Translations under genes and position numbers: made by a program
The notes under the pieces: generated by a model
What the model was told of the DNA's origin: nothing
Database searches by the model: none
The model's input: the letters and a program-made list of their open reading frames with translations, nothing else
Shown: piece by piece, positions 3,986 through 57,863 of the stretch
Layout of the letters: each line of letters begins with the position of its first letter
Numbering within the stretch: position 1 is the stretch's first letter
Origin: Actinomyces slackii
GTDB lineage: Bacteria > Actinomycetota > Actinomycetes > Actinomycetales > Actinomycetaceae
Length of the DNA: 64,000 nt
Reading direction: 5' to 3'
NCBI RefSeq assembly: GCF_900637295.1
Contig: NZ_LR134363.1
Location: 124,001-188,000, forward strand

Positions 3986-4936
3986 ATGACCGCCCTCAGC
4001 CATCCCACCACCCTGTCACGTCGCAGCGCGCTGCTGGCAGGCGCAGGAGTCATGGCCGCCACCGGCCTGGCCGCCTGCTCCGGCAGCTCCTCCAGCAGCA
4101 AGAACCTGAAGATCGCCGTCCCCTCGGGCTGGGACGAGGGCGTCGCCGTGTCCAACCTCTTCTCGGTGGTCCTGTCCGACATGGACTACAAGGTCACCCT
4201 CTCCGAGGCGGACATCGGGGTCACCTTCACCGGCCTGTCCAAGGGCGACTACGACCTCATGCTGGACTCCTGGCTGCCCACGACCCACGCCGCCTACATG
4301 GACAAGTACAAGAGCGACCTCGAGGACCTAGGCACCTGGTATAACGAGGCCAAGCTGGCGCTGGCGGTCAACAACTCGGCGCCGATCACCTCCATCAGCG
4401 AGCTGGCCGGGTCCGCCTCCGAGTTCAACAATGAGATCATCGGCATTGACGCGGGAGCGGGCCTGACCCAGATCACCCAGGACAAGGTCATCCCCGGCTA
4501 CGGCCTGGACTCGATGACCTTCAAGATCTCCTCGACGGCGGCGATGCTCTCCGCGCTCGACGGCGCCATGAAATCCGGGGAGAACATCGTGGTGACCCTG
4601 TGGAGCCCGCACTGGGCCTACACCGCCTACGACATCCGCGACCTGGAGGATCCCGACGGCCTCTACGGCGCGGCCGAGCAGATCCACTCCCTGGGCCGGA
4701 AGGACTTCACCAAGGACTTCCCCGAGGTCGCCGAGATGGTCAAGGGCTTCAGCCTGACCTCCGAGCAGCTCAGTGACCTGGAGAACCTCATGATCAATGA
4801 GAACAAGGGCAAGGACAACGAGAAGTCGGCCCGGACCTGGCTGGAGAAGAACCCGGACGTCAGGGCCGCCATGGAGACGCCCTCTGCCTCCTCCTCGGCG
4901 GAGAGCACAGCCTCAGCCTCTGCCTCAGCAGGCTGA
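3986..4936 (+). CDS. Glycine betaine-binding lipoprotein of the ABC importer
   Basis: A 316-residue extracellular substrate-binding protein (ProX/OpuAC family). The N-terminus carries a twin-arginine-like signal (SRRSALLAG) followed by a lipobox LAAC with the acylated Cys near residue 31. The DSWLPTTHAAY segment near residues 93-103 is typical of OpuAC-type proteins and supplies aromatic residues of the betaine-binding cage. The extreme C-terminus is a Ser/Ala-rich tail of about 25 residues. A GAAAGGA ribosome site precedes the ATG. It lies 122 nt after the permease, separated by a short tandem repeat, and is probably co-transcribed. A copy of the dispersed composite repeat follows directly. 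Confidence 0.92.
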   Translation: MTALSHPTTLSRRSALLAGAGVMAATGLAACSGSSSSSKNLKIAVPSGWDEGVAVSNLFSVVLSDMDYKVTLSEADIGVTFTGLSKGDYDLMLDSWLPTTHAAYMDKYKSDLEDLGTWYNEAKLALAVNNSAPITSISELAGSASEFNNEIIGIDAGAGLTQITQDKVIPGYGLDSMTFKISSTAAMLSALDGAMKSGENIVVTLWSPHWAYTAYDIRDLEDPDGLYGAAEQIHSLGRKDFTKDFPEVAEMVKGFSLTSEQLSDLENLMINENKGKDNEKSARTWLEKNPDVRAAMETPSASSSAESTASASASAG

Positions 4937-4943
4937 GCCGCTG

Positions 4944-5066
4944 GAGGACGAGGGTTCGCGTCGACGACGAGGGTCTGCGTACCGGACGAGGGTTCGCGTC
5001 ATCCGACTGGGGGTAGCACAGGGGTGATTGACGCAAAGTCACGTCGTCGACGCGAAGTCACGTTCA
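4944..5066 (-). repeat. Dispersed composite palindromic repeat, copy A
   Basis: One of five related intergenic elements in this window. The 39-bp core is at 4996-5034, in reverse orientation relative to copies B-D. Its ends GCGTCA and TGACGC pair. On the low-coordinate side are three 19-bp units of the form TNNCGGACGAGGGTYTGCG; on the high side are two units of the same family in the opposite direction. It starts 8 bp after the betaine lipoprotein stop codon and ends just before a 23-bp tandem repeat and the ilvD-tail remnant. It is not coding. The pattern resembles REP/BIME-like elements, but I do not recognise the family. Confidence 0.85.
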
Positions 5067-14847: not shown

Positions 14848-14980
14848 GGGCTCATCGCCGAGCCTGGCGGACGTGACTTTGCGTCGACGACGTGGGTTCG
14901 CGTCAATCACCCCTGTGCAAGCCCCAGTTCGATGACGCAAGCCCTCGTCCGATACGCAGAACGTCGTCCCCGCCACCGCG
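14848..14980 (+). repeat. Dispersed composite palindromic repeat, copy B
   Basis: Core at 14900-14938 with GCGTCA and TGACGC ends. Two 19-bp units lie upstream (the first within GGCGGACGTGACTTTGCG) and about two lie downstream. Copies B, C and D share a further upstream stretch ending GAGCCTGGCGGACGTG. The downstream tail runs into the 53-bp direct repeat that brackets the AlbA-type gene, so the two repeat systems touch here. Confidence 0.85.
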
Positions 14981-15198: not shown

Positions 15199-16323
15199 TC
15201 ACCCGGCTGCCGCCCATGACGGCAGGTACCTACGCGCCTTGGTCCCAGCTCCTGGGTTCTCGATCGCGATGGCTCCACTATCGAGCGCCTCCTTGATGAA
15301 ACGCGAGACCTGTGCTCGGTTCCCTGCGGTGATTCCGAACCTCTCACGCACCGACGTATTGGTCATCGGCCGCTGATTCACGTAGCGCAGACACGCGTGG
15401 AAGTAGATGGCGTTGATACGGTCATCAGTGTCCATGAGAGACAACTGCCTGGGACCGAGCAGAACCACCCGGGTGGAGCGGCCGTCCAGGACTACTCTCG
15501 GCGCTGGGAGCACAGCCTCCTCCACCGCCTCAACGATCTTGTCCCATCCACTCCCACGCTCCTCGCACACGCCGATCATCCTCATCACTCGCGCCATCCA
15601 CTCGTTGCGGGATTGCGGTGTCCCATCGACGAAGCGACGGAGATCCCTGGCGAACAGCAGGGCACCGCCAGCCGCCACGGACCAGCCGGTGCTCAACGAA
15701 TATCGAATGACCCCCGCACCGACAAGTACCTGTAACACAGCGTCCTGACTTGCAGGACGCGGAACATGCATCAACTGAAAGAACGAGTCGACGTCAAGAA
15801 TCTCAAAGAGATCACCGGGCTCCAGATCCTGCGCAACCACACAGTCCTCAAAGGTCTGAGTCGTCAGCCGCTCCCACAGATGTCTTTCGAGCACAGGCTC
15901 ACTACCGAGAACCTTGCAATACGACTGCCTCCTCATGTAAGCCTCACCCCTGAACCGAACTGGGCGCCCCACAGCGGCAGGAACCTCGAGGACGACCAGT
16001 CGATGCCCTGCACGCTCAATCTCTCCAACAAGCAGTTCACCGTCGAGGGTGAGCGAACGGGACAACCATGGGAGAAGATCCTCGTTACCCTTGCCCTTGA
16101 GCGACCGGAGATCGACTGTCGTGCCGACGACGACCAGATCCTTGTCCTGCACTCCCCACACGAGGTAGCCAGCCGGCTGGCCGACAAGTGCCGCGCTGTT
16201 GGCCAAGGAGGAGAGCCGCTCGCCGATCATCACCGGATCAGCGTTGCTCTCCTTGAACTCGACAACCTCCGACTCCCGTCCCTCGGACAGCAGTCGATCA
16301 AGAACCTTGTCCCAGTCCCGCAT
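15199..16323 (-). CDS. AlbA_2/Schlafen-type ATP-binding regulator with internal deletion
   Basis: A 374-residue member of the COG2865-like family (predicted transcriptional regulators or RNA/DNA-binding proteins). Seen: an AlbA_2 domain at about 15-125 with the VEFKES motif, the linker GGALLFARDLRRF near 225, then directly VDGTPQSRNEW and IGVCEERGSGWDK near 240-262, and a C-terminal winged-helix region (TNTSVRERFGI near 320). From family knowledge about 100 residues normally lie between the LFA-DL and PQSRNE motifs and contain the N-box of the GHKL-like ATPase. They are absent here without frame loss. The gene may be non-functional or altered. It is bracketed by direct repeats. Confidence 0.75.
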   Translation of the reverse strand: MRDWDKVLDRLLSEGRESEVVEFKESNADPVMIGERLSSLANSAALVGQPAGYLVWGVQDKDLVVVGTTVDLRSLKGKGNEDLLPWLSRSLTLDGELLVGEIERAGHRLVVLEVPAAVGRPVRFRGEAYMRRQSYCKVLGSEPVLERHLWERLTTQTFEDCVVAQDLEPGDLFEILDVDSFFQLMHVPRPASQDAVLQVLVGAGVIRYSLSTGWSVAAGGALLFARDLRRFVDGTPQSRNEWMARVMRMIGVCEERGSGWDKIVEAVEEAVLPAPRVVLDGRSTRVVLLGPRQLSLMDTDDRINAIYFHACLRYVNQRPMTNTSVRERFGITAGNRAQVSRFIKEALDSGAIAIENPGAGTKARRYLPSWAAAG

Positions 16324-22091: not shown

Positions 22092-22164
22092 CTCCGCCAA
22101 TTTGCGTGAGTTCGTGCTTTTCCAGGCCCGGAGAAGTACGAACTCACGCAAATTGGCGGAGTCA
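22089..22164. terminator. 76-bp stop-to-stop hairpin between convergent genes
   Basis: Arms 22089-22123 and 22130-22164 pair over 35 bp (two G-U wobbles) around the 6-nt loop AGGCCC. The outermost triplets are the TGA of the response regulator and, on the other strand, the TGA of pth. It can serve as a bidirectional terminator; the length and AT-richer arms (CCAATTTGCGTGAGTTCGT) are far beyond a normal terminator. Confidence 0.85.
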
Positions 22165-28012: not shown

Positions 28013-28209
28013 GGGATGCGCGGGCAGGTGGGGCTCCTCGCAAAGCCTGGCGGACGTGCGTTTGCGTATCGGACGTGCCTTCGCGTACCGGACGTGCGTT
28101 TGCGTCAATCACCCCTGCGCTAACCCCAGTCGGATGACGCATACCCTCGTCCGATACGCACATCGTCGTCCGCGCCACCGCGCACGGCCGAGCCCCATCC
28201 ATCCGTGCA
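28013..28209 (+). repeat. Dispersed composite palindromic repeat, copy C
   Basis: Core at 28102-28140. Three 19-bp units lie upstream (for example TATCGGACGTGCCTTCGCG and TACCGGACGTGCGTTTGCG) and two downstream. The 3' tail CGCGCCACCGCGCACGG then CCCCATCCATCCGTGCA is shared with copy D, nearly base for base. It lies between the CMD gene and the kinase gene. It and copy D bracket the two-component/exporter cassette in the same orientation. Confidence 0.88.
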
Positions 28210-34201: not shown

Positions 34202-34383
34202 GGGGTGCGCCAGCCGGATCGTGGGTCTCTCGCCGAGCCTGGCGGACGTGCCTTTGCGTATCGGACGTGACTTCGCGTCAATCACCCCTGTGATAACCCC
34301 AGTCGGATGACGCGAACCCTCGTCCGATACGCACATCGTCGTCCGCGCCACCGCGCAAGGCCGCGCCCCATCCATCCGTGCAG
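34202..34383 (+). repeat. Dispersed composite palindromic repeat, copy D
   Basis: Core at 34275-34313. Two units lie upstream (including TATCGGACGTGACTTCGCG) and two downstream. The tail after the core matches copy C at nearly every base for about 70 bp. It lies between the exporter permease and the eno terminator, completing the bracket around the two-component/exporter cassette. Confidence 0.88.
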
Positions 34384-36420: not shown

Positions 36421-36498
36421 GTGCTCCCGGATGAGGCTGTGCAGGTCTCCAGCAGCATAACAGCCGACTCCTCCTCGCCCCTTGCGCCTCTATCCCTC

Positions 36499-36563
36499 GA
36501 GGTAGACATTTTCCGCCGAGGTCGACGGCGAATGCGTCTACTTCGGCGGGAAATGTCTATCTC
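36499..36563 (-). repeat. Long imperfect hairpin between glycosyltransferase and SurA-like genes
   Basis: Arms 36499-36522 and 36540-36563 pair over 24 bp with three G-U-compatible differences; the 17-nt loop can pair further. It begins 28 bp after the glycosyltransferase stop codon. The arms (GTAGACATTTTCCGCCGA and partner) are AT-richer than the surroundings. It may be a terminator or a member of a mobile hairpin family. Confidence 0.7.
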
Positions 36564-36590
36564 GGCGCGGGGGGCCGCAGGCGCGGGGGA

Positions 36591-57710: not shown

Positions 57711-57863
57711 CGTCGACGACGAGGGTTCGCGCCGACGACGAGGGTCTGCGTACCGGACGAGGGTCTGCGTACTGGACGAGGGTTCGCGTCATCCGACGGG
57801 GGTTAGCACAGGGGCGATTGACGCAAAGGCACGTCTGATACGCAAAGTCTCGTCGTCGACGCA
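57711..57863 (-). repeat. Dispersed composite palindromic repeat, copy E
   Basis: The most regular copy. Core at 57786-57824, reverse orientation relative to B-D. On the low side four consecutive 19-bp units (ending with TACCGGACGAGGGTCTGCG and TACTGGACGAGGGTTCGCG) run into the core; on the high side two oppositely oriented units follow. It abuts the pckG terminator on its right. Confidence 0.88.

Follow-up and report, generated by a model that had tools for sequence, protein, structure and literature searches.

Dispersed composite palindromes of Actinomyces slackii and a predicted nuclease-type gene family bracketed by repeats

Structure and Copy Number of the F1 Element

The window analyzed here is a stretch of 64,000 nucleotides of the Actinomyces slackii chromosome, whose base 1 is genome position 124001. 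It contains five copies of a composite palindromic repeat, here termed F1, all of which were located at sequence level, in agreement with the original prediction. Copy 1 (4947..5064, minus strand; core 4996-5034, minus) begins about 10 bp past an OpuAC-family gene (3986-4936). Copy 2 (14870..14968, plus; core 14900-14938, plus) lies near an ORF with Schlafen AlbA_2 and HATPase_c_4 domains (15199-16323), and copy 3 spans 28053..28170 (plus; core 28102-28140, plus). Copy 4 (34245..34343, plus; core 34275-34313, plus) has an FtsX permease gene on one side and the enolase gene on the other, and is distinct from a hairpin on the enolase side. Copy 5 spans 57718..57854 (minus; core 57786-57824, minus). 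Three copies thus lie in one orientation and two in the other, the split that had been described. The extents first given for copies 2-4 proved somewhat long; counted units yield the limits listed here.

Each copy is built from a core and inward-pointing 19-bp units whose number per side varies, again as predicted (left/right counts for copies 1-5: 2/3, 2/2, 3/2, 2/2, and 2/4). The proposed fixed core holds in length and start, being 39 bp long and beginning GCGTCAATC in all five copies, but not in its end, which is CGGATGACGC in four copies and TCGATGACGC in copy 2.

A search of the whole chromosome (3,220,508 bases, one contig) with a 23-base core pattern, allowing up to three mismatches, returned 55 F1 cores, while the reversed pattern gave none. 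Chance GC-rich similarity, which had been named as a possible refutation, is therefore excluded. By central sequence, and in a grouping of our own, the 55 cores comprise 43 of type A, nine of type B, and three intermediates, with type-B cores 6-8 substitutions away from the consensus. The usual layout is two inward 19-bp units, the 39-bp core, and two further inward units, for an element length of about 100-116 bp. A column table of 45 copies, compiled after dropping eight near-duplicates out of 53, showed core ends GCGTCA (one base variable in one copy) and TGACGC (invariant), a central TGTGC, and a unit of GACGWGNNTTYGCGT plus four spacer bases, pointing inward with two per side; conservation among these copies falls off past about two units per side. 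Two left units were counted in 36 of 53 copies and two right units in 45 of 53 (range 0-4). The unit centers (the W and NN positions) draw on a limited set of types, chiefly AGCC, TGAC, AGGG, TGCC, and TGCG, and 45 of the 53 copies have AGGG as their first right unit. DNA outside the units is mostly unrelated between copies. At genome positions 1252452-1253985 and 3190326, F1 elements are split or truncated by sequence that carries repeats of the form TGTCACCGATGTCCTGAGACA, which are probably insertion-sequence ends.

Genomic Placement and Neighboring Genes

With a home-made gene caller, all 53 tested cores (of 55) fell outside called genes, bearing out the claim that F1 is always intergenic. 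Neighboring gene pairs were oriented ++ in 17 cases, -- in 16, convergent in 14, and divergent in three, and three copies had no called neighbor on one side. Compared with 140 local gaps of at least 120 bp, divergent pairs were depleted at F1 (3/50 vs. 32/140, Fisher p 0.01) and convergent pairs enriched (14/50 vs. 19/140, p 0.03). The accompanying claim that copies sit beside accessory loci does not hold as a general rule, since many of the scanned neighbors are core genes, among them those for enolase, PEPCK, fumarase, rplL, rpoB, ribonucleotide reductase, GroEL, topoisomerase I, and glutamate dehydrogenase. By eye, we spotted a separate hairpin beside the enolase gene and another beside that for PEPCK.

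A few neighborhoods drew attention in their own right. Undecaprenyl diphosphate synthase-type genes at 107816 and 1981039 each have an F1 copy beside them. A DDE_Tnp_1 gene (1041737-1043260; locus L152, 11736-13260) is flanked by direct, identical 109-bp sequences made up of the F1 core and right half (1041612-1043414 overall). This length is far above that of a usual target duplication and may reflect either recombination or an unusual insertion. Finally, an ORF of 252 aa (983869-984627, minus strand; locus L151, 3869-4627) is enclosed by two type-A F1 copies whose flanks are similar. It had no match in Pfam or PADLOC and is a second candidate partner gene.

Distribution Around the Origin

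F1 is strongly concentrated around dnaA, located at about 663.9 kb. Within 705 kb of this gene, a region covering 43.8% of the chromosome, lie 52 of the 55 cores (binomial 1e-15). When neighbors within 6 kb were merged, 40 of 43 remained near dnaA, with a circular mean of 660.9 kb, 3 kb from dnaA (Rayleigh z 17). Counts per 100 kb stay level to about 600 kb from dnaA and then fall, the drop lying near 0.6-0.7 Mb on both arms. Intergenic DNA made up 17.5% of 400 kb sampled near dnaA and 16.1% of an equal length far from it, and core strand relative to replication direction showed a non-significant split (31 vs. 18, p 0.085). GC skew was too noisy to be informative as a check on the origin, so its position rests on dnaA; a second DnaA_C match, below the cut-off, occurs at 1494 kb.

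Related Families and Phylogenetic Range

The A. slackii genome contains further repeats, one of which shares the F1 plan. This second family, F2, has CGCCGAGGTAGAC units 19 bp apart, arranged 2+2 inward around a 9-bp center; its census gave 60 half-matches, corresponding to about 31 elements, of which one lies in the window (36496..36567, unstranded). A third family, F3, is represented in the window by a palindrome of GCGTGAGTTCGTGCTTTTCC and its inverse (22104..22149, unstranded) and elsewhere brackets one of the genes discussed below (gene C). Two dispersed inverted repeats were also recorded: F4 (GTTGTCCACGGTGAACAAC) at 88, 409, 706, and 1215 kb, with ends about 107 bp apart, and F5 (GTCGCCGATGCACATTCATC) at 89, 409, 811, 1170, and 3110 kb. 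Among the stretches read, F4 and F5 were mostly origin-near. F2 shows an origin bias as well, with 30 of 31 elements within 1 Mb of dnaA (p 8e-6) and 22 of 31 within 705 kb (p 0.002), and F3 is without clear bias (five sites in near stretches plus the window, three in far stretches).

The literal F1 sequence was found nowhere else. With up to two mismatches the core was absent from 38 relatives; tandem F1 units were absent from 48 congeners and a related pattern from 393 genomes of the class; and the exact core pattern was absent from an 84,980-species collection and from viral contigs, searches that may have left out records of or near the A. slackii genome itself. A BLAST search of a 112-base F1 sequence against congeners returned short matches alone (best E 0.003). 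Absence of the core elsewhere had been offered as grounds for dismissing the family; it holds for the literal sequence in relatives and fails within the genome itself, with its 55 cores.

The architecture, in contrast, is shared by congeners with different sequences. We ran a sequence-free scan that required only a pair of repeats in each arm, set at a fixed period, and a second arm inverting the first; the counts it gave at other periods, chiefly multiples of three in apparent coding sequence, were set aside. In A. slackii the scan peaked at period 19, counting 24 elements across 400 kb close to dnaA against one across 400 kb far from it. In congener G024 it found 13 elements at period 19 in 400 kb, ten of which belong to an F1-like family with GRCGTSRCTTYGCG-like units related to those of F1 and a different core, although an 18-mer search of the same genome had detected no shared repeats. 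This family is not origin-biased (six elements in 200 kb near dnaA, four in 200 kb far). One related F2-type single element occurs in congener G044, and more palindromes with periods of 19-20 and other sequences were seen at congener loci. The plan recurs across the genus as its sequence turns over.

Tests of RAYT, RNA, and Target-Duplication Models

The original prediction had proposed a RAYT-like transposase as one possible partner. The Y1/HUH RAYT profile (PF01797) had no match in the whole A. slackii genome at E 0.1, while eight of 14 control genomes were positive, and no GTAG tag is conserved at F1 in the column table of 45 copies. The absence of PF01797 rules out a RAYT/Y1 transposase of the genome itself as the F1 partner.

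A structured RNA, also among the roles first suggested, fared no better. We found no overall covariation between the F1 arms in the 45 copies, in which a few single column pairs co-vary (uncorrected p 0.02-0.04) and the central dinucleotides of the outer units pair less than in shuffles (4 vs. 15 expected). No Rfam match fell on F1 elements in the five loci tested; miRNA-type matches in one locus (L015) were below the gathering score and lay on F2 palindromes. We therefore rejected this option. Folding better than shuffles was seen for six single strands of the five window copies (z -1.5 to -5.9), and as DNA for three copies (z -2.3 to -3.1), so folded DNA is a possible substrate.

No convincing target duplication was detected in 25 copies, searched at lengths of 3-9 and end offsets of -12 to +13, a comparison in which ends may be eroded; the best of 4732 combinations gave three matches against 0.4 expected. 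Without a target duplication, a single-strand or repair-based route fits better than a DDE transposase, and old, eroded copies fit too. Empty sites could not be aligned, as similarity to congeners ends at the end of the enolase gene and the intergenic DNA is unalignable.

Repeat-Bracketed Nuclease-Type Genes

Gene A (1254252-1255307; 351 aa) lies between rplL and rpoB and is surrounded by seven type-B F1 copies, one of which, upstream of the gene, is interrupted by an insertion sequence. A tblastn search with A, run over grid-placed stretches that had been set before F2 and F3 were known, identified two paralogues: gene B (1280271-1281134), with an F2 element on either side (1280002 and 1281192), and gene C (3118910-3119860), enclosed by a pair of identical F3 palindromes (3118823 and 3120050). 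A family HMM built from A-C was run over approximately 2.4 Mb from four species (60 stretches of 20 kb from A. slackii and 20 of 20 kb each from species G020, G021, and G024), together with the window and short loci. It retrieved exactly two further distinct members from the fetched stretches, both in G020. Gene D (E 2.9e-87) lies between direct copies, 84 nt long and 87% identical, of a palindrome whose arms measure 29 bp, and gene E (E 2.9e-37) between inverted arrays of 23-bp units. With the HMM rebuilt on these hits and its filters off, the next match (E 0.023) lacked the motif and stood far apart from the five members; no family gene was found in the 400 kb each of G021 and G024.

All five family genes are therefore bracketed by repeats, and by a different repeat family each. 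The bracketing repeats of A-D are direct and 87-100% identical. The D palindrome recurs once more in G020 and the E units in five further G020 stretches; across 2.0 Mb from the remaining three species, the D palindrome had no match and the E units two weak ones. A 14-base pattern for the E units lacked specificity (50 matches in G020 vs. 56 in the 2.0 Mb of other species). The N-terminal part of the E frame contains a run of 24-bp tandem repeats (locus L258, 5196-5507), which could be upstream DNA or a variable linker. Bracketing repeats lie about 1.1-1.5 kb apart, and 0.9-1.4 kb of this interval is taken up by the family ORF, so these units look like single-gene units. In the approximately 40% of the A. 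slackii genome that was read, no family gene was bracketed by the 43 type-A cores. No homologue of gene A was found in plasmids, nor of gene D in phages, and a search of viral contigs with alignment A1 gave 75 pattern matches with none confirmed.

We assessed how unusual such bracketing is by comparing 450 bp upstream with 450 bp downstream of genes that were called in these stretches and encode 150-600 aa, scoring shared repeats of at least 35 bits. Flanking repeats were shared in 22 of 1183 called genes, four of which were family members, leaving 18 of 1179 others. Against this background the five of five family genes stand out (Fisher 1.8e-9), a figure for which the family-gene flank windows were 60 bases longer per side and B, missed by the gene caller, was included. 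With identical handling, four of four family genes scored (9e-8), and with A also dropped, having been noticed before the test, three of three (4.8e-6); these p values are indicative, as genes are not strictly independent, and the background is raised by the siting of some A. slackii stretches on known repeats. Family genes are associated with bracketing repeats. Inspection of 14 of the 18 other positives revealed, among others, transposases, CRISPR-adjacent genes, duplications, and genes between F2 copies. The genes found between F2 pairs also include those for a LacI regulator, methyltransferases, and a GNAT protein, so the family is not alone in being bracketed. Near 1.6395 Mb, CRISPR-type repeats (GGATCATCCCCGCGTGCGCGGGGTTTAC) adjoin a DDE_3 transposase gene (locus L223, 18650-19504).

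The five proteins share invariant residues E241, D272, E283, D285, K289, and R302 (A numbering) in their alignment. The spacing of these residues fits a PD-(D/E)XK active site, and we take their catalytic role from family motifs. The best profile match to a solved structure was 3hrl, an 'Endonuclease-Like Protein' (E 0.0045), weak and the sole match near significance; next came a TetR regulator and PvuRts1I (E 0.2-0.3) and the mobile-intron protein 3r3p (E 1.5), all non-significant. Weak matches to PADLOC AbiEi models were obtained for genes A, B, and C (A at E 2.5e-6), A scores 21.6 bits against PF18741 (MTES_1575, a PD-(D/E)XK-type family), below its cut-off of 38.2, and B and C had no Pfam match at E 0.1. 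From motifs and profile matches, we infer that A-E form an AbiEi/DUF559-like, PD-(D/E)XK-type (Vsr-fold) family with predicted nuclease activity.

Interpretation and Alternative Explanations

F1 occurs as dispersed copies of fixed plan with mostly unrelated flanks, in intergenic positions off divergent gene pairs, and the five nuclease-type genes are each bracketed by repeats. We regard it as very likely that F1 elements are REP-like mobile palindromes, in line with the earlier description of an undescribed REP/iteron-like family. A functional link between palindromes and the nuclease-type gene is probable, and there is slightly less than an even chance that the gene product is the mobilizer. 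The overall reading that we favor, and to which we would give about an even chance, is that F1 elements are non-autonomous and that the autonomous unit encodes a predicted Vsr/DUF559-type nuclease rather than a RAYT. Of the roles first suggested, a substrate for a trans-acting recombinase comes nearest, with a different type of enzyme: the protein bracketed by repeats is AbiEi/DUF559-like and PD-(D/E)XK-type. Against our reading, A is bracketed by type-B cores, which make up nine of the 55, and type-A copies bracket the unrelated 252-aa ORF.

In the proposed mechanism, a palindrome, nuclease-type gene, and second palindrome would form an IS-like autonomous element of about 1.3-1.7 kb, and solo palindromes would be its non-autonomous copies, as REPs are to a RAYT. 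The units of F1 are putatively of a protein-binding type. The protein of each element would bind the units of its own family, either as double-stranded iterons or in the form of a hairpin, extruded or single-stranded, and its C-terminal region would cut at the palindrome. Such cutting would let copies spread via the replication fork or break repair, filling the role of RAYT for REP with a different enzyme fold. Clustering of F1 at the origin would then mirror sites at which insertion was favored or tolerated.

The main rival holds that the nuclease-type genes are passengers of a homing type, for which the palindrome serves as both recognition site and homology arm; the protein would insert its gene there without spreading the solo palindromes. 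This explains the direct, 87-100% identical brackets of A-D well, as they would be expected if a gene entered and duplicated one palindrome. Further genes also lie between paired palindromes, and the very weak, non-significant match to mobile-intron protein 3r3p points the same way. Left unexplained by homing are the origin of the 55 solo copies and the inverted arrays around E, and we judge this account unlikely. Less likely still is that F1 is a chromosome-organizing site, with some 50 loading or occlusion sites, bound by some protein, marking the origin-proximal half; Noc and SlmA sites are the comparators for such marking. The confinement of 52 of 55 cores to within 705 kb of dnaA, at counts that stay level to about 600 kb instead of declining gradually, would suit such a site, as would the similar intergenic space in both halves sampled (17.5% vs. 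16.1%) and the lack of clear bias in F3. A chromosome-domain function read from the origin bias of F1 is nevertheless weakened, because F2 shares that bias (30 of 31 within 1 Mb) and the F1-like family of G024 is without it (six near, four far). Moreover, tandem F1 units are absent from the 48 congeners, and the strand split of 31 vs. 18 is non-significant.

Two further accounts seem to us highly improbable, and to a similar degree. One is a transcribed structure, such as a bidirectional terminator, an mRNA stabilizer, or another structured RNA, for which the better-than-shuffled folding of six strands, the avoidance of divergent gene pairs, and the few co-varying column pairs speak. Most variable arm positions do not co-vary, however, the outer central dinucleotides pair in four cases against 15 expected, elements in five loci drew no Rfam match, and the enolase and PEPCK genes have separate hairpins beside them, as seen by eye. 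The other is a MITE of a conventional DDE transposon. Some transposons, of the Tn7, Mu, and Tn5053 types, have multi-site ends, which the two tandem inward units at each end of F1 resemble. Such a MITE is at odds with the lack of a convincing target duplication in 25 copies, and the sole DDE_Tnp_1 gene seen beside F1 (1041737-1043260) has on its flanks copies of no more than part of the element.

Comparison with Known Repeat Systems and Implications

REP-like palindromes are common in bacteria, and many of their families have no known enzyme. Like the repeats of REP/REPIN-RAYT systems, F1 consists of short, dispersed, intergenic palindromes of species-limited sequence that lie off divergent promoters, and a gene is bracketed by copies of its own repeat family (F1 type B in the case of A, other families in that of B-E). 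Unlike in those systems, the genome lacks a Y1/HUH RAYT and the bracketed gene is AbiEi/DUF559-like and PD-(D/E)XK-type; F1, F2, and the E family are built of tandem units of 19-23 bp, and F1 has no conserved GTAG. BOX, NIME, and other composite bacterial repeats likewise combine a core with a variable number of modular units. F1 shares this feature and differs from them in its inward, symmetric arrays and in bracketing a nuclease-type gene.

CGTC-tagged REPs, as characterized by Di Nocera et al. (2013; PMC3733652), consist of a stem of 8-9 bp, a loop of 4-5 nt, and a CCA-type tail. That study reports no dedicated transposase for this type and lists five phyla in which CGTC repeats occur, with the word Actinobacteria absent from the main text. 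The GACG of F1 units is the complement of CGTC, and dimers and a location in convergent or unidirectional gene pairs are common to both; the F1 unit consensus GACGWGNNTTYGCGT, however, has no such stem of its own. The weak matches of A, B, and C to PADLOC AbiEi recall the AbiE type IV toxin-antitoxin systems (PMC3985639), which are built as a bicistronic AbiEi-AbiEii pair; here the repeats appear to enclose one gene, its protein has a C-terminal PD-(D/E)XK-type region, and the repeats are dispersed over the genome. No publication tying AbiEi/DUF559 proteins to dispersed palindromes was found among the matches listed in a search of open-licence PMC literature.

These elements could, tentatively and with somewhat less confidence than we place in the mobilizer role itself, represent a new class of mobile DNA. 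In such a class, single-gene units would encode an AbiEi-like protein whose PD-(D/E)XK region acts as transposase or mobilizing nickase of species-specific palindromes, several of them ended by tandem units; solo copies would be REP-like, could accumulate to dozens in a genome, and in A. slackii would cluster near the origin. A family repeatedly bracketed by palindromes of its own species offers a candidate enzyme that belongs to neither the HUH nor the DDE class, and confirmation would explain what one group of solitary AbiEi/DUF559-like genes does. A set of repeats centered on the origin, level in density and then dropping, also opens the question of what shapes the distribution of repeats along the chromosome.
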